38,203 bases of DNA from Lysobacter sp. Its GTDB lineage: Bacteria > Pseudomonadota > Gammaproteobacteria > Xanthomonadales > Xanthomonadaceae. The stretch is from the NCBI GenBank assembly GCA_004322525.1, contig SCUY01000217.1:1-38203 (forward strand), given 5' to 3'. This document shows, in pieces, positions 2,660-23,715 of the stretch. Within the stretch, counting starts at the first letter, position 1, and each line of letters begins with the position of its first letter. The notes under the pieces are model-generated. The model ran no database searches, was not told the origin of the DNA, and saw nothing but the letters and a program-made list of their open reading frames with translations. The position numbers were made by a program, and so were the translations under genes.

Positions 2660-2673
2660 TTGATTCAAGTCAA
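2660..2673 (-). promoter_or_regulatory. Candidate FNR/ANR box upstream of norB
   Basis: TTGATTCAAGTCAA (TTGAT-N4-GTCAA), one mismatch from TTGAT-N4-ATCAA; centre about 61 nt from the norB ATG. Confidence 0.7.
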
Positions 2674-2710: not shown

Positions 2711-3478
2711 TTACTCGCGCAGCACCGGCGCCGCCAAGGCTTCAAGCGCGGCCGGGTTGAGCAATTCGAGCTCGCGCCGATCGACGGCGACCAGCCCGTC
2801 CTGCTGGAGGCGCTTGAGCACGCGGCTCACGGTTTCCGGGGCCAGCCGCAGGTAGTTCGCGATGTCGGTGCGCGCCATCGTGAGCTGGAAGCGGTGCGGC
2901 GAGAAGCCGCGCGCGGCGAGGCGACGCGAGAACCCGACGAGGAACGCGGCGGTGCGCTGGTCGGCGGTGAAATCACCGGCCAGCAGGGCGGCGCGGCCGA
3001 TGTCGCGGCTCATCAGCCGGAACAGCTGCCGCTGCAGGCCCGGCACGCGCGTGGCGAGCAGTTCGATCTGCGGGAAAGAGAAGCGGCAGAGCATCACCGT
3101 GTCGAGCGCGACCGCGTTGCACGGGTAGTGGTCTCCGTCGATCGCGTTGAGGCCGATCACTTCGCCGGGCAGGTGGAAGCCCAGCACGTGCTCCCGGCCG
3201 TCGCGGTCGATCACATAGGTCTTCACGGTTCCTGCGCGCACCGAGGCGATCGCCTCAAAGCGGTCGCCCTCGCGGAAAACGTGCTCACCCGCGGCGAGCG
3301 GGCCGACGTGCTCGACCAGCACATGCAGGTCCTGCAGCGAGCTCTTGTCCATGCCATGCGACAGGCAGGCATCGGAGAACGCGCAGGTGGAGCAGAAGTG
3401 CAGCGCGTCGCCGTCGTCCGAAAGCGTGCGCGCGTCCTGCCGCGGAAATGTGGTCGGGATCAAGGCCTGCACCGCCAT
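2711..3478 (-). CDS. Crp/Fnr-family regulator with FNR-type Fe-S cysteines (paralog 1)
   Basis: Start at MAVQALIPTT (3478). CSTCAFSDAC (C-x2-C-x5-C) plus central Cys in VMLCRFSF; cNMP-like fold FREGDRFEAIASVRAGTVKTY; HTH DIANYLRLAPETVSRVLKRLQQDG. Confidence 0.92.
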   Translation of the reverse strand: MAVQALIPTTFPRQDARTLSDDGDALHFCSTCAFSDACLSHGMDKSSLQDLHVLVEHVGPLAAGEHVFREGDRFEAIASVRAGTVKTYVIDRDGREHVLGFHLPGEVIGLNAIDGDHYPCNAVALDTVMLCRFSFPQIELLATRVPGLQRQLFRLMSRDIGRAALLAGDFTADQRTAAFLVGFSRRLAARGFSPHRFQLTMARTDIANYLRLAPETVSRVLKRLQQDGLVAVDRRELELLNPAALEALAAPVLRE

Positions 3479-3482
3479 CGCG

Positions 3483-4883
3483 TCAGATCGCACGCGAGAA
3501 ACGCGGGCGGGCGATATCCGCAGGACGATCGAGGTAGGCGTCGAAGCACATGGCGATATTACGCAGCAGCAGCCGGCCCTGCGAGGTGGCGAAGATGCGG
3601 CCGTTCTCGCGACGCACCAGGCCGTCCGCTTCCAGCGGTTCGAGCGCATGCAGCGAGCCGTCGAAGTAGCGATCGAAGACGATGCCGTAGCGACGCTCGA
3701 GCGCGGCCACTGGGATCTCGCCCTGGCACATCAGTGCCTGGATGAGGTCGGCACGCAGCTCGTCGTCCTCGCTCATGTGCAGGCCGCGGAATACCGGCAG
3801 ACGGCCTTCGTCGAGCGCGTGCTCCCAGCTCGGCAGGTCGCGCGGGTTCTGGCTGAAGGTACTGCCGATGTGGCTTATGGCGCTCACGCCGAGGCCGATC
3901 AGGTCGCTGTCGGCATGCGTGGTGTAGCCCATGAAGTTGCGGTGCAGGCCGCCGCGCGCCTGCGCGGTAGCGAGCTCGTCGTCGGGCAGCGCGAAATGGT
4001 CCATGCCGATATAGACGTAGCCGGCGGCCGTGAGCCGCGAGATCGCCATGTGCATCAGCGAGAGCTTGACGTCGGGCGTGGGCAGGTCGTCGGCATTGAT
4101 CTGCTTCTGCGCACGGAACATTTCGGGCAGGTGCGCGTAGCTGTAGACCGCCAGGCGGTCCGGACGGATCGTGAGCACCTGGTCGATGGTGCGCGAGAAG
4201 CCTTCGGGCGTCTGCTTGGGCAGGCCGTAGATCAGATCGATGTTGACCGAGCGGAATCCGGCGTCGCGACAGGCGTCGACCACTGCGCGCGTGTCCTCCA
4301 CGCTCTGGATGCGGTTCACCGCGGCCTGCACGTCGGCATCGAAGTCCTGCACGCCGAGGCTCGCGCGGTTGAAGCCGATGCGCGCGAGCTGCGCGATCTC
4401 GCCGGGGGCGACGAAGCGCGGGTCGAGCTCGATCGAGATGTCGCTCTCGCGATGGCGGGCGAAGTGGAAATGCCGGCGCAGCGATTCGACCACCTCGCCG
4501 AGCTGCTGCGGCGACAGGAAGTTCGGCGTGCCGCCGCCGAAGTGCAGTTGGATCGCCTCGCGGTCGCGGTCGAACAGCTCGGCCATCAGCGCGATCTCGC
4601 GATACAGCCGCGCGAGGTAGAGCTCGCCGCGCGCCTTGTCGCGGGTGATGATGCGATTGCAGCCGCAGTAGAAGCACGGGCTCGTGCAGAACGGCACGTG
4701 CAAGTAGATCGACAGCCGGCGCGGGATCGGGTCGCCGTTGCTGGCGGCCGCGGCCGCACGCAGCTCGGCTTCGCCGAACGAGTCGCGGAACTGCGGCGCG
4801 GTCGGGTAGGAGGTGTAGCGCGGGCCCGGGCGGTTGTAGCGCTCGAGCAGACCGCGGTCGATGATGGCGTCAGAGATCGGCAT
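3483..4883 (-). CDS. hemN: Oxygen-independent coproporphyrinogen III oxidase (radical SAM)
   Basis: RYTSYPTAPQF, LSIYLHVPFCTSPCFYCGCNRIIT (CxxxCxxC plus extra Cys), LHFGGGTPNFLS, NIDLIYGLPKQT. Confidence 0.97.
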   Translation of the reverse strand: MPISDAIIDRGLLERYNRPGPRYTSYPTAPQFRDSFGEAELRAAAAASNGDPIPRRLSIYLHVPFCTSPCFYCGCNRIITRDKARGELYLARLYREIALMAELFDRDREAIQLHFGGGTPNFLSPQQLGEVVESLRRHFHFARHRESDISIELDPRFVAPGEIAQLARIGFNRASLGVQDFDADVQAAVNRIQSVEDTRAVVDACRDAGFRSVNIDLIYGLPKQTPEGFSRTIDQVLTIRPDRLAVYSYAHLPEMFRAQKQINADDLPTPDVKLSLMHMAISRLTAAGYVYIGMDHFALPDDELATAQARGGLHRNFMGYTTHADSDLIGLGVSAISHIGSTFSQNPRDLPSWEHALDEGRLPVFRGLHMSEDDELRADLIQALMCQGEIPVAALERRYGIVFDRYFDGSLHALEPLEADGLVRRENGRIFATSQGRLLLRNIAMCFDAYLDRPADIARPRFSRAI

Positions 4884-4918
4884 GGGCAGCAGACTAGCCA
4901 GCGCATCGGGGTGTCGAC

Positions 4919-4932
4919 TTGACCCGGATCAA
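4919..4932 (-). promoter_or_regulatory. Candidate FNR/ANR box upstream of hemN (intergenic with divergent fnr paralog 2)
   Basis: TTGACCCGGATCAA (TTGAC-N4-ATCAA); centre about 42.5 nt from the hemN ATG. Confidence 0.75.
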
Positions 4933-5115: not shown

Positions 5116-5871
5116 ATGACTCCGACGATCGACCTCATCACCCTGCGGAAAGGCTGCGCCAGCTGCTCCCTGCAGCAGCTCTGCCTGCCCGCGGGCATCA
5201 CGCTCGCGGAACTGCAGGAGCTCGAGGACATCGTGAAGCGGAAGCGGCCGGTCGAAGCGGGCGAGCGCCTGTTCCGGCAGGGCGATCCCATGGGCTCCGT
5301 GTACGTCGCACGCGACGGCACGTTCAAGACGGTTCTGGTCAACGAGGACGGCGAGGAACAGGTGATCGGTTTCCACTTGCCCGGCGAGTTGATCGGGCTC
5401 GACGCCCTCGGCACCGGCACGCATCGCGTCGAGGCCGTTGCGCTCACGCGCGCGAACGTCTGCGAAGTGCCTTTCGACGAGCTGGCAGCGGTGGCGTCGC
5501 ATGTGCAGGGATTGCAGCGACAGCTGATGCGCGTCATTGGCCAGAGCGTCGGCCGCGACCAGGACCATCGCGAAATGCTGGTGCGCCGGCAGGCCAACGA
5601 GCGCATCGCCCTGTTCCTGCACGGGCTGCGCGAACGGCTGCGCACCATCGGCGAACCCGGCGACCAGATGCGGCTCTCGATGAGTCGCGAGGACATCGCG
5701 CGTTTTCTCGGGCTTGCGCTCGAGACCGTCAGCCGCGGGTTTACCCGGTTGCAGGACGACGGCGTGATCTCGGTGCGCGGGCGCAAGGTGGAGATCCTCG
5801 ACGTCGCCGAGCTCGATCGCCTCGCGCACGGCCATGACGCACCCGGCGAACGCAGCCGCGCACGCGCCTAG
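5116..5871 (+). CDS. Crp/Fnr-family regulator with FNR-type Fe-S cysteines (paralog 2; FNR/ANR)
   Basis: CASCSLQQLC (C-x2-C-x5-C), central ANVCEVPF cysteine, GFHLPGELIGLDALGTGTH, HTH REDIARFLGLALETVSRGFTRLQDDG. Confidence 0.94.
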   Translation: MTPTIDLITLRKGCASCSLQQLCLPAGITLAELQELEDIVKRKRPVEAGERLFRQGDPMGSVYVARDGTFKTVLVNEDGEEQVIGFHLPGELIGLDALGTGTHRVEAVALTRANVCEVPFDELAAVASHVQGLQRQLMRVIGQSVGRDQDHREMLVRRQANERIALFLHGLRERLRTIGEPGDQMRLSMSREDIARFLGLALETVSRGFTRLQDDGVISVRGRKVEILDVAELDRLAHGHDAPGERSRARA

Positions 5872-14733: not shown

Positions 14734-14747
14734 TTGATCTCGATCAA
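14734..14747 (-). promoter_or_regulatory. Consensus FNR/ANR box upstream of ccoN
   Basis: TTGATCTCGATCAA, exact TTGAT-N4-ATCAA. On the minus strand a GACAAT -10-like hexamer (14712..14707) is spaced as in class II FNR promoters. Confidence 0.9.
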
Positions 14748-14762: not shown

Positions 14763-15430
14763 CTAGGCTGGTCGCCTGCGCGGCACGAAAGAACACAGCG
14801 GGGGCCGCCCTGTGCCTGGCAGATCGCATAGAACTTTGCCAGCGCGCGACCCGACGAAAGCAACTCCCGGGCCTGCGCCACGCCGCCACTGGTCGCGGCC
14901 CCCTGCGACGAGGTCGAGGAGCGCGCCCGCAAGAAGCAGCGCGCGCTCGCGGAGGTCCGCGGGCGCATCGGCATCGTTGCGAAGTACTTTCAGCACATCG
15001 ATCGCCTCCAGCGCCGGGCCGATGCCGAAGCCGACCGGCTGCAAGCCGTCGGAGTGATGCACACCAATGCGCAGCCCCAGTGTTTTCCCGGCGTCTACCA
15101 GGCGGCGCGTAAGCGCAGCGGCTGCCACGTCGCTGCGCACTTTCGCGGTCGGGCCGATCGGCATGTCGATCAGCACATGGTTCGAGCCCGCGGCGACCTT
15201 CTTCGACAGCACGCTCGCGACGAGCTGGCCGTCACTGTCGAAATCGAGTGGGCGCTCGACGCGGATCAGCACATCGTCTGCCGGGCTCAGCCGCGCACTG
15301 CCGCCCCAGACCAGGCAGCCGCCCTCCTGCTCCATGACGCGTCGCATCGCAGGCAATTCGAGGTCGACCGGTGTCATCACTTCAACCGTGTCGGCGGTAC
15401 CGGCAGGCCCACCATGTCCGGTTCTGCACG
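14763..15430 (-). pseudogene. Truncated, frameshifted thymidine phosphorylase/AMP phosphorylase (DeoA-like) remnant
   Basis: Frame 1: [94 protein letters not shown]...[42 protein letters not shown]. It then shifts to a second frame, [32 protein letters not shown]. The frame changes at the C5 tract 14899-14903. N-terminal catalytic part absent. Confidence 0.85.
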
Positions 15431-15770
15431 AAATAGCCGGCCGGGCTCAGGAATTTGCCGGCCACCAGTGCGGCGTGGTCGCCCAGCAGCCAGCTGGCTG
15501 TCGCGTACTCGACACCCGTCTCGCGCCCGCCATCCGAGTCGACGGCCGCTTCGAGCTCCGTCTCGAACAGGAGTCGTGGGCCGACCTGCAGATGCAGGTC
15601 GGCGCGAGCGTGCCTTCCAGGCGCGAGCCGTCGCCGGTGGTGGCAACCGCAGCGACGTCTGCATACCCGGTGACGTGGAACACGACCGAGCCGTCGTCGG
15701 CAGCCACGGCGTTCGCAGCGGTCAGCTCCTGCGAGGCTGCGGAGCCGGCGGCCGTCAGCAGCAGCGTGGC
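15420..15770 (-). pseudogene. Frameshifted outer-membrane porin-like fragment
   Basis: Frame 1: LATLLLTAAGSAASQELTAANAVAADDGSVVFHVTGYADVAAVATTGDGSRLEGTLA. Frame 2: ADLHLQVGPRLLFETELEAAVDSDGGRETGVEYATASWLLGDHAALVAGKFLSPAGYFVQN. Frame changes near 15601-15606. No good start codon; 3' end runs straight into the DeoA-like remnant. Confidence 0.6.
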
Positions 15771-15983
15771 GAGCGGGCGGTGATCAATATGCGCGGCACG
15801 CCGTGCTCCGAACGCATTGCTGAGCACGCCATACAACGCACCCACCCAGATGCCGGTAATGGTGAAGAAGACCGCGCCAATCGCGACATGCGCGAACGTC
15901 ATCGCCGGCACCGGTTGCTGGAACGGCGCAACGTTCAGGCCGTGCACCAGGACGCTCAGCGCGTCGGACCGTAAGCTCCCCCG

Positions 15984-16050
15984 TCAAGCAGACACTTCAA
16001 AAGTAGAACTTCCGGCGTGGCTGGTGCGGTATTCGGCGGGGGTCATCCCA
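15984..16050 (-). mobile_element. Possible 3' remnant of an IS3-type transposase ORF and element end
   Basis: Short tail GMTPAEYRTSHAGSSTFEVSA* followed by CGGGGGAGCTTACGG. The 'TPAEYR...STFE.S*' tail resembles the C-terminus of IS3-family OrfB proteins; abuts the cusA 3' end. Only about 20 codons, so tentative. Confidence 0.4.
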
Positions 16051-19000
16051 CACCCACACCCACTTCGATTGCGCGACGGACCCGCGAGCGCATCGCGCGC
16101 CGCTTCACCAGCGCGTAGATCACCGGGATCACCACCAGCGTCAGCGCCGTCGACGACACCATGCCGCCAACCATCGGCGCGGCAATGCGTCGCATGACTT
16201 CCGAACCGGCACCCGTACTCCACATGATCGGCAGCAGGCCGGCCATGACTGCCACAACCGTCATCATCTTCGGACGCACGCGTTCGACGGCGCCTTCCAT
16301 GATCGCGTCGAGCAGGTCTTCGTCTCGCAGCTGTTCGCCCGCCTGGCTGCGCTCCAGCGCGCGGGTCGACAGCGCATGGTCGAGGTAGAGCAGCATCACC
16401 ACGCCGGTCTCCGCCGCCACGCCGGCCAGCGCGATGAACCCCACCGCGACTGCGACACTGAGGTTGTAGTCGAGCAGCCACATCAGCCAGACGCCACCGA
16501 CCAGCGCGAACGGTACCGAGAGCATCACGATCAGCGATTCGGTCACGCGCCGGAAATTGAGGTAGAGCAGCAGGAAGATGAGCGCCAGCGTCACCGGTAT
16601 CACCAGCCGCATCTTCGCCGCCGCGCGCTGCATGTACTCGTACTGGCCGCTCCACGTAGCAAAGTAGCCCGGCGGGAAGCGCACGTCGCGGATGACCGCA
16701 GCCTGCGCACTGCGTACGAAGCGGCCGATGTCGCTCTCGCGTGTATCGACATAGATGTAGGCCGACAGCATCGCGTTCTCGGTGCGGATGCTCGGCGCAC
16801 CCTTGCGCACCTGCAGCGTCGCCAGCTCGCCCAGGGGCACCTGCGCGCCGCTCATCGTCGACACCAGCACATTGCGGCCGATGTTGGCCGGATCGCCTCG
16901 AAGCTCGCGGGGGTAACGCACGATCAGGCCGAAGCGCTCGCGGCCCTGCACCATCGTGGTCACCATCTCGCCACCGAGCGCTGTCCCGACCACGTCCTGC
17001 ACGTCCCCCACGGTAAGCCCGTACTGCGCGAGTCGGTCGAGGTCGGGATCGATGTCGAGGTAGTAACCGCCGGTCAGGCGCTCGGCATAGGCGCTCGTGG
17101 TGCCCGGCACCTTCCTCACGCTGGCCTCGATCTGGCGCGACAGCTCTTCCAGCTCGCCCAGATCGCGGCCGAACACCTTGATGCCCACCGGCGTGCGGAT
17201 GCCGGTGGCGAGCATGTCGGTGCGCGCCTTGATCGGCATCGTCCACGAGTTGGCGATGCCCGGGAACTTGAGCGCGGTGTCCATTTCCTTGACCAGCGCA
17301 TCCACCGTCATGCCCTTGCGCCACTGCGACTCGGGCTTGAGGTTGATGACTGTTTCTGACATCTCGAGCGGCGCCGGGTCGGTCGCCGTCAACGCGCGGC
17401 CGGCCTTGCCGAATACGGACTCCACTTCCGGGAAGGACTTGATGATGCGGTCTTGCTTCTGCAACACGGACGCCGCCTGCGTCGCGGACATGCCCGGCAG
17501 TGAAGCGGGCATGTACAGCAACGTGCCCTCGTTGAGCGTGGGCATGAACTCGCTGCCCAGCCGCGACGCCGGCCACAGCGTCACCAGCAGCACCAGCGCG
17601 GCAACGACCAGCGTCGCCGCCTTGTGCCGCAGCACGCCATGGATGATCGGGCGGTAGATCCGGATCAGCACGCGGTTGACCGGGTTCTTCGCCTCCGGCG
17701 TGATGCGGCCGCGCACGAAGATCCACATCAGCACGGGCACCAGCGTGACCGACAGCAAGGCCCCGCCCGCCATCGAGAACGTCTTGGTGAACGCGAGCGG
17801 CTTGAACAGTCGCCCCTCCTGCGCTTCCAGCGCGAACACCGGCAGGAACGACACGGTGATGATCATCAGGCTGAAGAACAGCGACGGGCCCACTTCGCGG
17901 CAGGCTTCGATGATGATCTGCGCGCGAGGCTTGCTACCGTCGTCGCGCTCTAGATGCTTGTGTGCGTTCTCGATCATCACGATCGCGGCGTCCACCATCG
18001 CCCCGATCGCAATCGCGATGCCGCCCAGGCTCATGATGTTGGAGTTCATGCCGAGCAGGCGCATCGCGATGAAGGCGATCATGACGCCGATCGGCAACAT
18101 CAGGATCGCCACCACCGCGCTACGCACGTGAAACAGGAACAAAAGGCAGACTAGCGCCACGATGACGCTCTCCTCCAGCAGCGTGCTGCGAAGCGTCTTG
18201 ATGGCGCGGTGGATCAGGTCCGACCGGTCGTAGACCGTTTCGACCTTGACGCCCTCCGGTAGGCCGGCGCCGATTTCGACGATCTTCTGCTTGAGGTTGT
18301 GGATCACCGACAGCGCGTTTTCGCCGTAGCGAGCGACGACGATGCCGGCAACGACGTCGCCCTGGCCGTTGAGGTCGGTGACGCCGCGGCGCTCGTCGGG
18401 CACCAGTTCCACGCGCGCGAGGTCGCCGATCCGCACCGCGCGCCCGTCACGCGCCGCGACGGTGAGGTTGGCGACGTCTGACATGTTCCGCAGGTAGCCA
18501 CGGCCGCGGATCATGTATTCGGTTTCCGCCATCTCGATGGTCCGGCCGCCGACGTCGCGATTGCTCTCGCGCAACACCCGAGTGATCGTCGACAGCGGTA
18601 TGCCGTATTCGCGCAGGCGCACCGGGTCGACGGTGACCGAGTACTGGCGCACGAACCCGCCGACGCTGGCCACCTCGGCCACGCCGCCGGCCTTGGTCAG
18701 CTGGTAGCGCACGTACCAGTCCTGCAGCGCGCGCAACTCGTCGAGCGAATGCTTGCGCGAGGTGAGCGCGTACTCGTAGACCCAGCCGACGCCGGTCGCG
18801 TCCGGGCCGAGCGTCGGCGTTACGCCCGAGGGCAGGTTCTTGGACGCGAAGTTCAGGTACTCGAGCACGCGCGAGCGTGCCCAGTAGACGTCGGTACCGT
18901 CCTCGAAGATGACGTAAACGAACGATGCTCCGAAGAAGGAGAAACCGCGCACGACCTTCGAGCGGGGCACCGAGAGCAGCGCACTGGTGAGCGGGTAGGT

Positions 19001-19195
19001 GACCTGGTCCTCGACCACCTGCGGCGCCTGTCCGGGCACATCGGTGTAGACGATGACCTGCACGTCCGAGAGGTCAGGCTGGGCGTCCAGGGGGGTATTG
19101 ACCACCGCGTACACACCCGCCGCGGCGAGCGCGACGGTGGCGACGAGGACAAGGAAGATGTTGCGGATGGACCATTCGATCAGCCGGCCGAGCAC
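16043..19195 (-). CDS. cusA: Heavy-metal efflux RND transporter permease, CusA/CzcA family (likely Cu/Ag)
   Basis: GTG start proposed at 19195 (VLGRLIEWSIRNIFLVLV). NTPLDAQPDLSDVQVIVYTDVPGQAPQVVEDQVTYPL, GGIAIAIGAMVDAAIVMIENAHKHLE, RTDMLATGIRTPVGIKVFG. Confidence 0.94.
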   Translation of the reverse strand: MLGRLIEWSIRNIFLVLVATVALAAAGVYAVVNTPLDAQPDLSDVQVIVYTDVPGQAPQVVEDQVTYPLTSALLSVPRSKVVRGFSFFGASFVYVIFEDGTDVYWARSRVLEYLNFASKNLPSGVTPTLGPDATGVGWVYEYALTSRKHSLDELRALQDWYVRYQLTKAGGVAEVASVGGFVRQYSVTVDPVRLREYGIPLSTITRVLRESNRDVGGRTIEMAETEYMIRGRGYLRNMSDVANLTVAARDGRAVRIGDLARVELVPDERRGVTDLNGQGDVVAGIVVARYGENALSVIHNLKQKIVEIGAGLPEGVKVETVYDRSDLIHRAIKTLRSTLLEESVIVALVCLLFLFHVRSAVVAILMLPIGVMIAFIAMRLLGMNSNIMSLGGIAIAIGAMVDAAIVMIENAHKHLERDDGSKPRAQIIIEACREVGPSLFFSLMIITVSFLPVFALEAQEGRLFKPLAFTKTFSMAGGALLSVTLVPVLMWIFVRGRITPEAKNPVNRVLIRIYRPIIHGVLRHKAATLVVAALVLLVTLWPASRLGSEFMPTLNEGTLLYMPASLPGMSATQAASVLQKQDRIIKSFPEVESVFGKAGRALTATDPAPLEMSETVINLKPESQWRKGMTVDALVKEMDTALKFPGIANSWTMPIKARTDMLATGIRTPVGIKVFGRDLGELEELSRQIEASVRKVPGTTSAYAERLTGGYYLDIDPDLDRLAQYGLTVGDVQDVVGTALGGEMVTTMVQGRERFGLIVRYPRELRGDPANIGRNVLVSTMSGAQVPLGELATLQVRKGAPSIRTENAMLSAYIYVDTRESDIGRFVRSAQAAVIRDVRFPPGYFATWSGQYEYMQRAAAKMRLVIPVTLALIFLLLYLNFRRVTESLIVMLSVPFALVGGVWLMWLLDYNLSVAVAVGFIALAGVAAETGVVMLLYLDHALSTRALERSQAGEQLRDEDLLDAIMEGAVERVRPKMMTVVAVMAGLLPIMWSTGAGSEVMRRIAAPMVGGMVSSTALTLVVIPVIYALVKRRAMRSRVRRAIEVGVGVG

Positions 19196-19196
19196 G

Positions 19197-20546
19197 TCAG
19201 CGGCCCTCGCCCGTGCCGGCCGCACGCGGATCGGCGGAAGGCTTGTCCATGCCAGGCATGTCCGGCATGGACGGGGCGGCGGGCCCGGCGGGCGACGGTG
19301 TCGCTGCCGCCGGCGTAGTCGCGGGTCCCTTGGCGTTGCCCAGCCCCTGCAAGGCCGACTGCAGGTTGCTCTCGGCATCGATCAGGAAGTTGGCGGACGT
19401 CACCACCGCCATGCCGTCATCGAGCCCGGCGAGCACTTCGACGCGGTCGCCGAAGCGGCGGCCCAGCGCGACCTCGCGCGGGGCATAGCGGCCTTCGCCC
19501 ACCTGCACCAGCGCGACCTGCCGGGTGCCGCTGTTGATCACCGCGGAGGCCGGCACGGTCAGCGCATCGACCGTGGGCCCCGTGAGCTCCAGCGTCCCGT
19601 AGACGCCGGGCCGCAGTTGCTGGCGGGGGTTGGGCAGCTCCACGCGCACGGCGACCGTGCGCGTCGTCGGATCGACTACCGGCTGCACGAACGTGATGCG
19701 CCCGCGCACGCTTTCACCGGGGAGGGCGGTGGAAACGAAAGCGGCCGACTGGCCGGGCGCCAGCGTCGACGCCTGATCCACCGGCACGTGCGCGATCGCC
19801 CACACCGTGGACAGGTCCGCGATCTTCAGGATCGCCTCGCCGGCCATGAAGCGGGCGCCGGGCAGCACGGGCTTCTCGATCACAACGCCACTGACCTTGG
19901 AGCGATAGACCACGTTGAACGCGTCGCCGCCGGCGTCCACCTCCCAATTGCGCAGGCGTGCGCGGCCAGCGTCGCGCAGGCGCCGCATCGCCGCCGCGCC
20001 CTGCGGATCGGAGCCGGACAGGCGCGCGGCCGCGGTGTCAGCCAACTGGATCTCCTGCCGCGCCGCGGCCAGCTGCGGGCTGTAGACCGCCAGCAGCGGC
20101 TGCCCGGCGCGCACCGCCATGCCCGTCTGGTTCGCATAGAGGTGGGCGACCCATCCCTCGAAACGCGGGGCGACGACGAACTCGCGCGTCTCGTCGATCG
20201 CGACCGTCGCACTGGCGCGCACGCTCATCACCTGCAGGCCGCGCCGTACTGGCTCGGTGCGCACGCCGAGCGTCTGCACGCGGCCCGGGTCCAAAGCGAC
20301 GGTGCCCGGTGCGGCGCTGTCGCCGCCTTCGTACACAGGCACGTAGTCCATGCCCATCGGATCCTTCTTCGGCGTCGGCGAGGTGGCCCCGCTCATCGGC
20401 GCGCGGTAAAACAGGACGCGACGGGCCCCGGGAGCCGTGGCACCCGCTGCCAGCGGGACGTCGTGACGGCGGCCGATCCAGACGCCCGCGCCCAGTGCGA
20501 CGGCGGCGATGACAACGACAAGGACAGTGCGGGTCAGGGTGTTCAT
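19197..20546 (-). CDS. cusB: Efflux RND periplasmic adaptor, CusB-like, with Met-rich C-terminus
   Basis: Start MNTLTRTVLVVVIAAVALGAGVWIGRRH (20546). FYRAPMSGATSPTPKKDPMGMDYVPVYEG heavy-metal-binding motif; PSMPDMPGMDKPSAD tail. Confidence 0.93.
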   Translation of the reverse strand: MNTLTRTVLVVVIAAVALGAGVWIGRRHDVPLAAGATAPGARRVLFYRAPMSGATSPTPKKDPMGMDYVPVYEGGDSAAPGTVALDPGRVQTLGVRTEPVRRGLQVMSVRASATVAIDETREFVVAPRFEGWVAHLYANQTGMAVRAGQPLLAVYSPQLAAARQEIQLADTAAARLSGSDPQGAAAMRRLRDAGRARLRNWEVDAGGDAFNVVYRSKVSGVVIEKPVLPGARFMAGEAILKIADLSTVWAIAHVPVDQASTLAPGQSAAFVSTALPGESVRGRITFVQPVVDPTTRTVAVRVELPNPRQQLRPGVYGTLELTGPTVDALTVPASAVINSGTRQVALVQVGEGRYAPREVALGRRFGDRVEVLAGLDDGMAVVTSANFLIDAESNLQSALQGLGNAKGPATTPAAATPSPAGPAAPSMPDMPGMDKPSADPRAAGTGEGR

Positions 20547-21820
20547 GGTGCGGCTCCTTCCACGGCGCGCACATCGGCCGCGGCAGTGAGCTCGTCGCGC
20601 TGGGCGGCGAGCCGGGTGAGTTCGGCGCCCTGCCACGCGTCGAGCGCGTCGAGGACTGTGGCAAAGTCGACTTCGCCGGCCTGGTAGCTGGCGAGCGCGG
20701 CCTTGAAGTTGGCGTCGCTCTGCACCTGCAGCGTCGTCTCGGCGAGCCGCCGCCGCTCCCGCGCGCCGGTCCAGCGCGCGAAGGCACCGGCGAGGCGACT
20801 GTCGAGATCACGCTGGGTGGCGCCGACCCGGAGCCGCGCCGCCTCGGCCCGCAGGTCGGCCTCGCGCTCGCGCTCATGCAGCGCGCGTCGCTGCAGCGGC
20901 ACCTGCATCTCCAGCATCAGTTCCAGGCTCTCGACGCCGCCGCCGCGCTGCATCGCGCCGACGCCGACGGTGATGTCGGGCCGTCGCGCCCGGCGCTGCA
21001 GTTCGGCCGAGCGTGCTGCTGCAGACGCCATGGATTCGCGGGCCGCCAGTTCCGGCGCGGACACCGACGACAGCGCGGCGCGCGCCGCGGCCAGCGTCGG
21101 ATGCGCGATCGGCAGCAGGGGGGCAGCCGCGGGCTCGGCCAATGGCGCGTCGGCCGGCCGGCCGAGGAGCCCATTGAGCATGGCAGCGGCCTCGCGATGC
21201 ATTGCGTCGCGCTCGAGCCGCTCGCCGAGCAAGCCCGTGCGCACAACCTGGGCGCGGATCGCGTCCTGCTGGGGCACCATGCCCAGCGCATAGCGCACGC
21301 CGGCGATCTCCTCCACCTGATCGAGCAGGCGCACGCGGCGGTCGATCACCACCAGCGCCTGGCCGGTCTCCCAGAAGCGCGCGTAGGTGGATTCGATCTG
21401 CGCGAGCAGCTGGCGGGCTCGCGAGTCGCGGTCGGCCCCGGCCGCCGTGGCCTCGTCGCGCGCCACGTCGCGCGCCAGCTCGCGCTTGCCCCACAGCGGC
21501 ACGGTCTGGCGCAGCTGCAGCAGGTTGCCGGTCTCGCGGCCGGCCCCGTGCCAAGGGGCGGCCGGGTCGATGCCGCGCAGGGTGATGGCGACCATGGGGT
21601 CGGGCAACGCGCCGGCGGGCAGTACGCGCGCCTGCGCGGCCTCGGCGTCCAGCCCGGCGGCGGCGAGCTCGGGGCTGTGGGCGAGGGCCCATTGGCGCAC
21701 CGAGGCGACGTCGCGCCCCGGCATGTCGTGCGCGCCGGCCGGTGCCAGGAATGCGCAGAGCGCCAGTGCAAGCGCAAAGCGCCGCAGCAAGGGGCCCGAA
21801 CGGGCAAGGAAATTCGACAT
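20543..21820 (-). CDS. TolC-family outer membrane efflux protein (CusC-like)
   Basis: Signal peptide, then ALPDPMVAITLRGIDP...NLLQLRQTVPLWGKRELARDVARDEA; coiled-coil repeats; ATGA overlap with cusB. Confidence 0.9.
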   Translation of the reverse strand: MSNFLARSGPLLRRFALALALCAFLAPAGAHDMPGRDVASVRQWALAHSPELAAAGLDAEAAQARVLPAGALPDPMVAITLRGIDPAAPWHGAGRETGNLLQLRQTVPLWGKRELARDVARDEATAAGADRDSRARQLLAQIESTYARFWETGQALVVIDRRVRLLDQVEEIAGVRYALGMVPQQDAIRAQVVRTGLLGERLERDAMHREAAAMLNGLLGRPADAPLAEPAAAPLLPIAHPTLAAARAALSSVSAPELAARESMASAAARSAELQRRARRPDITVGVGAMQRGGGVESLELMLEMQVPLQRRALHEREREADLRAEAARLRVGATQRDLDSRLAGAFARWTGARERRRLAETTLQVQSDANFKAALASYQAGEVDFATVLDALDAWQGAELTRLAAQRDELTAAADVRAVEGAAP

Positions 21821-21897
21821 GGAGCGGTCCTCGGATGGACGCGTGGTGACGCGCGGTCGCTATCGACGGCGCGGCCTGGCGGTCGCTCGAGGAACGC

Positions 21898-22335
21898 CTA
21901 GATCAGTAGCAGTGGCGCCGGGTGGCGGGTCGGGCCACGCGGGGGCCGGTCGGGCGGCGAGTAGGTGCCGGCGATGCATTGCGCCGCCGGGAGCAGGACC
22001 GCGCCCACGGCAAAAGCGAACGGCGCAGGAAGCAGCGCCGGGACCGGCGGGACGCGGGCGACTTCCGCCGAACCTGTCTTCTGGTCGCAGTGCGCATCGC
22101 AGGTCGCACTGCCCGCGCGGCGGACTTTCGCCTCGCAGTGGTGTCCCTCGGCCATGGCGGGGGCGGCGTGGGCGCCGGCGTCGTGCATCCCGTGCCCCTC
22201 CGGTGCAACGTCCGCAGGTGCGGGCATGGGCGGCATGGCGCACGCGCCGTGCATGGCCGACACCACCTGCGTCCACAGCATCGCGGTGATCGCGAGGATC
22301 AGCCAGAAGCGGGGCCGACGGGAACGGCAGTGCAT
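21898..22335 (-). CDS. Small secreted Met/His/Cys-rich protein, probably copper-associated, first gene of the cus operon
   Basis: Signal-peptide-like N-terminus, then MHGACAMPPMPAPADVAPEGHGMHDAGAHAAPAMAEGHHCEAKVRRAGSATCDAHCDQK. Confidence 0.7.
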   Translation of the reverse strand: MHCRSRRPRFWLILAITAMLWTQVVSAMHGACAMPPMPAPADVAPEGHGMHDAGAHAAPAMAEGHHCEAKVRRAGSATCDAHCDQKTGSAEVARVPPVPALLPAPFAFAVGAVLLPAAQCIAGTYSPPDRPPRGPTRHPAPLLLI

Positions 22336-22369
22336 GGGGCTACATTAGCTGCTGCGCGGTGGCTCTGCT

Positions 22370-22383
22370 TTGATCTCGGTCAA
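22370..22383. promoter_or_regulatory. Candidate FNR/ANR box between the cus operon and the divergent ATP-grasp-like gene
   Basis: TTGATCTCGGTCAA (TTGAT-N4-GTCAA). On the minus strand a TAATGT -10-like hexamer (22347..22342) lies at class II FNR spacing upstream of the ATG at 22335. Confidence 0.7.
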
Positions 22384-22425
22384 CCTGGAGGCTTGCCGTG
22401 CCGTCCTGTTTCCGGCCCCCGCATC

Positions 22426-23715
22426 ATGACCGACACGCCCCGCTGCCTAACCGGCTGCACCCCGCCGGACGGCGACTCACTGAACCGGCAATGCACCTGC
22501 GCCGTGGTTGACGTCGCGCAGATACGGAACAGGCTGGCCGCACAGCTGGTGCACGGCGAAGCCGTCGACTCCGAACGCCACGCCCATCTGTTCTCGCCGC
22601 ACGCGCTGTTCGTAGACCGGGCCTCGCTCGACGCCATGGCCGCGGTGGCCAGCGCGGTGCTCGAGGTTGCGACGTGCCCGGCCTATATCGACCGCGTACT
22701 GGACTGGGCGCCGGCGATCGCCTCGCACGACCCGGGTTCCCCCGGCGGCGTGTTCGGCCTCGACTTCCACTTGACCGTCGAAGGTCCGCGGTTGATTGAA
22801 GTCAACACAAACCCCGGTGGCCTGCTGCTGAACGCACTGCTGCTGGACGGCGTTGAGGCCTGCGCACCTGCGTCGTGGGCGCCGACACGAACCTCGACCG
22901 ATGCGCGGGCTGCCGCCGTCGACGCATGGCTCGAGGATGCCCAGGCGCAGCTGGGGCGGGCGCCGACGCGGATTGCCGTTGTCGATCTCGACCCGCCTGC
23001 GCAGTTCCTTTATCCCGAGTTCGAGTTGTACGCCGCCGCCTTCCAGGAGCGCGGGCTCGACTGTGTGATCTGTGACCCGGATGCACTCACCTGGGACGGC
23101 ACGTCGCTGCGCGACGCGTCAGGCACGGTCGACTTCGTCTACAACCGCCTGACCGACTTCGCACTTCAGGATCCAGCTTCCGCGGCGATACGCGCAGCGT
23201 TCCTTGCGGACGCGGTTGCACTGACGCCACACCCTCGTGCGCACGCCCTGCTTGCCGACAAGCGCAACCTGGCGGTGCTGGGGGATGGAGAGCGGCTGCG
23301 GGCGTGGGGTATTGCGCCAGACGTGTCGGCGTTGCTCTCGCGCGCGATTCCCGAAACGTTTGCAGTCGACGGGTCGCGGGCTGAGCAACTCTGGGAGCGA
23401 CGGAAGGACTACTTCTTCAAACCCGCCACCGGCTTCGGCAGCCGGGGCAGCTACCGCGGTGACAAGCTGACGCGAAGGGTGTGGGAGTCGATCGAACAGG
23501 GGATTTACGTTGCACAGCGCTTCGCGCCGCCGAGCCTGCGCGTCGCGGCGGACGGCACCACACTGAAGGCCGATGTGCGTTGCTTCGTCAACCGGGACAG
23601 CGTGCTGATGTTCGCCGCACGCCTGTATCAAGGGCAGACCACCAACATGCGTACGGCCGGCGGTGGGTTCGCCGCGGTACTTACCACGCCCCGGCGGCCT
23701 GCATCAGCGGAGTGA
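22426..23715 (+). CDS. Circularly permuted ATP-grasp-like protein of unknown function
   Basis: ATG at 22426 ([29 protein letters not shown]). Metal-ligand-like [30 protein letters not shown] lies N-terminal to nucleotide-binding-like [32 protein letters not shown], the reversed order expected of circularly permuted ATP-grasp folds. Confidence 0.65.

Follow-up and report, generated by a model that had tools for sequence, protein, structure and literature searches.

Class II FNR/ANR promoters are known for FNR in Escherichia coli, for ANR in Pseudomonas and, in alphaproteobacteria, for FnrL/FixK2 at fixNOQP-fixGHIS. FNR control has also been predicted in alphaproteobacteria for metal P-type ATPases that are tied to the cbb3 oxidase (PMC2908626). 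The cusCFBA copper exporter of E. coli is under the control of the two-component system CusRS, and Cus is more important than CueO in this organism when oxygen is absent (PMC10100754). In Dickeya and Pectobacterium, cusCFBA expression rises without oxygen (PMC3349551). FNR-driven cusCBA was not found in the literature searched, the coverage of which leaves out most subscription papers.

Copper operons headed by a small regulatory gene have been described as well. CutF, encoded in the cutFOG operon of Rhodobacter capsulatus, is a co-translationally exported copper sensor whose tail, together with a stem-loop, controls the next gene, and CutF-like genes often precede OEP/CusCBA genes (PMC9973294). 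Copper-responsive upstream ORFs also head copper operons in Bordetella pertussis, where CruR belongs to DUF2946 (PMC9426467), and in Xanthomonas, where the example is CopL as far as it is discussed in PMC9973294. In Cupriavidus metallidurans, the CutF-like gene czcI2 heads an RND metal operon and is transcribed leaderless (PMC7563307).

The locus described here lies in a 38,203-nt stretch of DNA from Lysobacter sp. (contig SCUY01000217.1), which is referred to as the window. It shares with the class II FNR/ANR promoters the box sequence, the -41.5 position, and the use of a -10 without a -35, and it shares with those systems the [4Fe-4S] FNR proteins and the cco, hemN, and nor companions. Unlike the known promoters of this class, it is directed at an RND exporter for periplasmic Cu(I), and its mRNA is predicted to be leaderless. 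The operon has the CusCBA homologs of E. coli Cus but, in place of two-component control, an oxygen-sensor box with no adjacent CusRS, and its first gene is cusX. From the sequence evidence below, we consider it likely that cusX-cusC-cusB-cusA is activated at low O2 from this box, as a class II FNR (ANR-type) site, and is transcribed into a leaderless mRNA.

A copper-efflux operon with cusX as its first gene

The operon is encoded on the minus strand in the order cusX, cusC, cusB, and cusA (Table 1). CusA scores 1204 bits against TIGR00914, aligns with E. coli CusA at 1211 bits versus 552 bits for ZneA, and carries the Cu/Ag-type motif GIAIAIGAMVDAAIVMIEN. Together with the CusB adaptor and the OEP, this CusA-type permease makes up an HME-RND system of the Cu/Ag type, CusCBA. 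The first-pass annotation had placed the box in front of a copper-efflux operon, and the CusCBA genes are indeed downstream of it; what had been missed is cusX, the 145-aa ORF that, rather than cusC, is the first gene. The window also encodes norB, two FNR paralogs, hemN, and the cco cluster. A 306-aa ORF between ccoN and cusA (positions 15054-15974) has no Pfam match and shares a 47% identical stretch with one other locus (L025).

Table 1. Positions of genes, promoter elements, and RNA features in the window
Feature	Position	Strand	Remark
FNR box upstream of norB	2660..2673	-	
FNR paralog 1	2711..3649	-	Cys86, 89, 95, 188; recognition helix ETVSR; beside norB
FNR box of hemN	4919..4932	-	centered 42.5 nt from hemN ATG; TAGTCT 22 nt after box
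FNR paralog 2	5116..5871	+	Cys14, 17, 23, 116; recognition helix ETVSR
Perfect FNR box upstream of ccoN	14734..14747	-	ACAATT 22 nt after box
cusA (HME-RND permease)	16043..19378	-	true start inside ORF
cusB (CusB/HlyD_D23 periplasmic adaptor)	19197..20636	-	true start probably downstream of ORF start
cusC (outer membrane efflux protein, OEP)	20543..21820	-	
cusX-cusC intergenic RNA	21821..21897	-	fold z = -2.7
cusX (145-aa predicted exported Cys/His/Met protein)	21898..22335	-	C-x2-HC motif; C-terminal PTxHPAxLLLI
Predicted +1 (A of cusX ATG, leaderless)	22335..22335	-	inferred from box/-10 spacing
-10 hexamer TAATGT	22342..22347	-	starts 22 nt after box; fits conserved TAnnnT
FNR/ANR-type box, TTGATCTCGGTCAA (plus) = TTGACCGAGATCAA (minus)	22370..22383	-	basis: sequence, footprint over 43 non-redundant promoters
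Divergent ATP-grasp-like gene	22426..23715	+	-10 absent at FNR-dependent position
Second box-like palindrome	22792..22805	+	inside ATP-grasp-like ORF; codons of conserved LIEVN motif

Architecture of the cusX promoter

Read on the minus strand, the box TTGACCGAGATCAA has one change relative to a TTGAT-N4-ATCAA-like palindrome consensus. Its center, at 22376.5, is exactly 41.5 nt from A22335 of the cusX ATG, as confirmed by rechecking the coordinates. The first-pass annotation had given the position of the box, its centering, and the placement of TAATGT correctly to the base. A -35 element is absent, and the combination of a box at -41.5 with a -10 at +22 is the geometry of an activator. The assignment of this arrangement as a class II FNR promoter is well supported by the sequence features.

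With this class II FNR promoter geometry the leader would be 0-4 nt long, and for this reason transcription of cusX is predicted to be leaderless, with a start on the ATG or no more than a few nt away. TAATGT is separated from the ATG by the 6 nt AGCCCC, in which no Shine-Dalgarno sequence is evident. Among the orthologs, the distance from TAnnnT to the ATG is only 5-11 nt, from which leaders of 0-4 nt are calculated; the start is therefore expected 0-4 nt before the cusX ATG. Strong Shine-Dalgarno energies precede cusX in 26 of 70 loci (24% for random sequence) versus 43 of 62 for cusC. The short TAnnnT-to-ATG distance and the weak Shine-Dalgarno signals before cusX thus support the leaderless reading.

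Occurrence of FNR boxes in the window and the genome

The genome assembly that holds the window (2.4 Mb, 318 contigs, 91% complete) contains 12 sites that match TTGAYN4RTCAA, five of which are within the 38-kb window, and a reversed-pattern control gave none. Four of the five precede norB, hemN, ccoN, and cusX, and the fifth is the palindrome inside the ATP-grasp-like ORF. When up to two mismatches to TTGATN4ATCAA are allowed, 19 matches are found in the window as compared to 3.6 expected. Near-matches of this kind do occur in 38-kb windows, which is what could be said for the palindrome being a chance match in an intergenic region. The probability of this explanation is nevertheless negligible, because the box is part of a footprint in 43 non-redundant promoters (described below) and is followed by TAnnnT at an exact spacing of 22 nt.

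The hemN box (window positions 4883-4932 with its surroundings) appears, by its architecture, to be a second leaderless-type FNR promoter like that of cusX. Because hemN shares the layout of box, -10, and ATG with cusX, FNR promoters of the leaderless type may be a general feature of the genome. Elsewhere in the genome (locus L003, G000:C109), an apparent copper nitrite reductase gene has two FNR-type boxes upstream, TTGACGCAGGTCAA and TTGATCTGGATCAG.

The divergent ATP-grasp-like gene

The first-pass annotation had noted that no comparable -10 precedes the ATP-grasp-like gene on the plus strand, and this holds: all eight divergent ATP-grasp sides are without a -10 at the corresponding distance. 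The possibility that the box serves this gene was rejected, since the -10 is missing at 8/8 loci and the box itself is missing where the gene is located elsewhere. The palindrome within the gene was likewise rejected as a regulatory site, as it consists of the LIEVN codons. Four relatives (L015, L018, L019, and L021) share this accidental palindrome, a perfect FNR box, at the same LIEVN codon, and scans of genomes for FNR boxes can pick it up as a false site. The protein matches no Pfam family above threshold. In relatives (L014-L029), the gene is repeatedly found beside CopA-type ATPases or cus operons, and the encoded protein is a candidate copper-linked enzyme.

Conservation of the promoter among relatives

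Orthologs were gathered with a CusX profile, and 70 loci that encode full-length proteins from many genera of the family were read. The search of orthologous cus operons that the first-pass annotation had proposed returned the same box and spacing. A box with at most one mismatch is centered 40.5-46.5 nt from the cusX ATG in 59 of the 70 family loci. Outside the family, three further families of the same order provided 14 loci that could be scored, and 10 of them have it. After removal of near-copies, the box is in place in 34 of 45 non-redundant upstream regions, as compared to ∼0.002 expected per locus. A Dokdonella MAG has the same placement at cusX, and a search with a single CusX protein led to named Lysobacter and Dokdonella records. 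Altogether, the arrangement extends across some two dozen genera and no fewer than four families. In an alignment of 43 non-redundant promoters, positions outside TTGAY, RTCAA, and the hexamer TAnnnT carry next to no information, and the distance from the box to the start of TAnnnT is exactly 22 nt. In one large subgroup of orthologs, a half-site is weaker (ATCAG).

Paralogous first ORFs of OEP/RND operons (L106-L124) end in DPPPRLRFCSLLI directly before the stop codon and have no Pfam match. In several genomes, these operons have an FNR box, TAGACT, and a nearby ATG, all of them before the start codon that the profile had selected. A search of plasmids with CusX gave no match.

Loci without the box

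Eleven of the 70 family loci are without a box (at most one mismatch) in place, one of which (L070) has a version with two mismatches. Most boxless loci group in a single clade of nine, which has strong support (100/99). Three loci of this clade have clear CueR-like operators, CCTTCC-N-GGAAGG, and others have related sequences of the CueR kind. CueR-like operators replace the FNR box at L093, L098, L099, L100, and L101; at L098 and L101 the palindrome is centered only about 45-49 nt from the start, unlike in classical CueR promoters. Two genomes (G168 and G335) have two copies of CusX each, one with the FNR box and one without.

These promoters, together with a CueR-like protein in the genome that scores below the curated cut-off, could indicate that the operon is mainly controlled by copper at transcription, through a regulator of the CueR or CopR type, and that FNR only modulates or even represses it. 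We regard this as quite improbable: a CueR-like palindrome is found upstream of 0/59 FNR-type cusX genes, no regulator of the CusR/CopR family in the genome scores above the curated cut-off, and the box at -41.5 with its -10 at +22 and no -35 is arranged for activation. Most simply, these data suggest an old FNR promoter that gave way to other promoters in the boxless clade, in at least part of the cases to one of the copper type.

FNR proteins encoded in the window

Both FNR paralogs retain the four cysteines of a [4Fe-4S]-type protein and align with solved FNR structures. The ORF of paralog 1 is approximately 57 codons too long at its 5' end, and an internal ATG (MAVQALIPTTFP) is the likely start. 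FNR homologs were detected in all 66 cusX-bearing genomes tested, in a few of them weakly; some box-bearing genomes (e.g., G379, G194, G267, and G327) have weak FNR homologs only.

DNR-type regulators recognize the same TTGAT-N4-ATCAA motif. The site could therefore be read by another CRP/FNR-family protein of the same DNA specificity, such as a NO sensor of the DNR/NnrR type, in which case the operon would respond to denitrification intermediates and not to O2. The genome does have norB and the copper nitrite reductase gene, both with boxes, and paralog 1 adjoins norB. However, all four Fe-S cysteines are present in both paralogs, and in a PDB search the two are far closer to FNR (about 162 and 172 bits) than to DNR (43 and 33 bits), which makes a NO sensor unlikely. 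From the promoter sequence we infer that FNR occupies the cusX promoter and that the promoter responds to O2.

CusX and the cusX-cusC spacer

CusX matches no Pfam or NCBIfam model. Its N-terminus resembles a signal peptide on inspection, and Met/His stretches are present. Across the orthologs, C67, C79, and C83 are invariant and H82 is nearly so, as in a short exported-type protein with a CxxxC-type metal motif. The tail, PTxHPAxLLLI, is nearly identical up to the stop in 42 of 42 representatives (<85% identity), and the middle of the protein is unconserved. A PP pair is located 14-15 residues from the end of CusX in the window; in most orthologs it is outside the last 15 residues, usually at 18-19.

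CusX resembles CutF in that it is a short ORF, predicted to be Sec-exported, at the head of a copper operon, with a conserved C-terminus at the stop and, in the window, an mRNA stem over the next Shine-Dalgarno sequence. The cysteine motif is C-x2-HC here and CxxxC in CutF. CusX differs from CutF in having no Pfam match, a PTxHPAxLLLI tail rather than a plain PP motif, and an FNR promoter. CruR lowers expression through Rho and uses RAPP, and CusX has no sequence match to its family; five CusX orthologs gave no match to DUF2946 even at an E-value of 10, and membership was rejected on that basis. The CutF-like gene czcI2 resembles cusX in heading an RND metal operon with a leaderless transcript (predicted for cusX), but it belongs to a Czc heavy-metal system and no FNR site has been reported for it.

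The gene cusC is nearly always the next after cusX; the two are 98-138 nt apart in most loci, and 77 nt separate them in the window. The spacers are more stable than dinucleotide shuffles (mean z -2.9; 19 of 26 below -2). In the window, TCCTCG (21893..21888), 5 nt past the cusX stop, is fully complementary to CGAGGA (21833..21828) and pairs with it; the latter segment includes GAGGA, the Shine-Dalgarno sequence of cusC. Among orthologs, the Shine-Dalgarno sequence pairs more than in shuffles with the 25 nt that directly follow the cusX stop (3.24 versus 1.68 paired positions, sd 0.42). A stem that shields the Shine-Dalgarno sequence is clear in the window and in about half of the representatives, but mean accessibility across orthologs equals that of shuffles (0.40 vs 0.40), and general occlusion of the cusC site is thus unsupported on average. 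RNAalifold gave no consensus on a MAFFT alignment of the intergenic regions, which are too divergent for plain alignment.

By analogy with CutF and CruR, CusX could be an exported, copper-sensing nascent chain, a possibility to which we give somewhat less than even weight. A simpler role, the likelihood of which falls just short of even, is that of a plain periplasmic copper-binding protein or chaperone analogous to CusF, whose tail serves protein function and next to which the RNA folds are incidental. The exported, Met/His/Cys-rich appearance of CusX and the fact that Shine-Dalgarno occlusion is not general in orthologs are consistent with this role. It accounts less readily for conservation that is focused on the final 11 residues, directly before the stop, beside an unconserved middle, or for the structured mRNA after cusX, where the Shine-Dalgarno sequence in the window is locked by nucleotides 5-10 past the stop. 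It should be noted that the CusF-like role competes only with the sensor function of CusX and not with the FNR promoter.

Proposed mechanism and biological meaning

Our current model for the FNR promoter is as follows. At low O2, a [4Fe-4S]-FNR dimer, formed by one or both of the paralogs in the window, would bind at -41.5 and recruit RNA polymerase to TAATGT. Transcription would begin on the cusX ATG, or only a few nt away from it, and yield a leaderless cusX-cusCBA mRNA. CusCBA would then be made alongside the cbb3 oxidase, HemN for heme synthesis, and NO reductase. In this setting periplasmic copper would be Cu(I) and O2-dependent multicopper oxidases could not detoxify it, which is the situation where E. 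coli depends most on Cus (PMC10100754). The PTxHPAxLLLI tail may govern how long the ribosome resides at the cusX stop, which would unmask the cusC Shine-Dalgarno sequence. The operon would thereby answer to both low O2 and copper, with copper acting on translation of the pump via CusX.

The first-pass annotation had proposed that an oxygen sensor controls this copper operon. The box, its spacing, the -10, and their conservation are sequence support for that proposal; a reading in which oxygen takes the place of copper sensing probably leaves something out, because copper may act after transcription, via cusX, and because one clade has non-FNR promoters. Tentatively, and with clear doubt, we suggest a two-input gate in which FNR provides the leaderless mRNA and CusX represents a new family of nascent-chain sensors, whose arrest-like tail would let cusCBA be translated only once the emerging chain has bound copper in the periplasm. 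Under this scheme, with CusX sensing copper, a dedicated copper transcription factor would be unneeded.

Bacteria with this arrangement probably make the copper pump at low oxygen, and copper itself is perhaps sensed later, via CusX at the head of the operon. The prediction is that Xanthomonadaceae and their relatives switch periplasmic copper export by CusCBA with oxygen rather than with CusRS, which would make the exporter part of the regulon responsible for two cuproenzymes, the cbb3 oxidase and nitrite reductase. Such a switch would explain how Cus could take over from O2-dependent copper oxidases once oxygen is exhausted. If the sensor role is true, CusX would be a new and testable family of copper-sensing upstream ORFs with a strictly conserved C-terminus.
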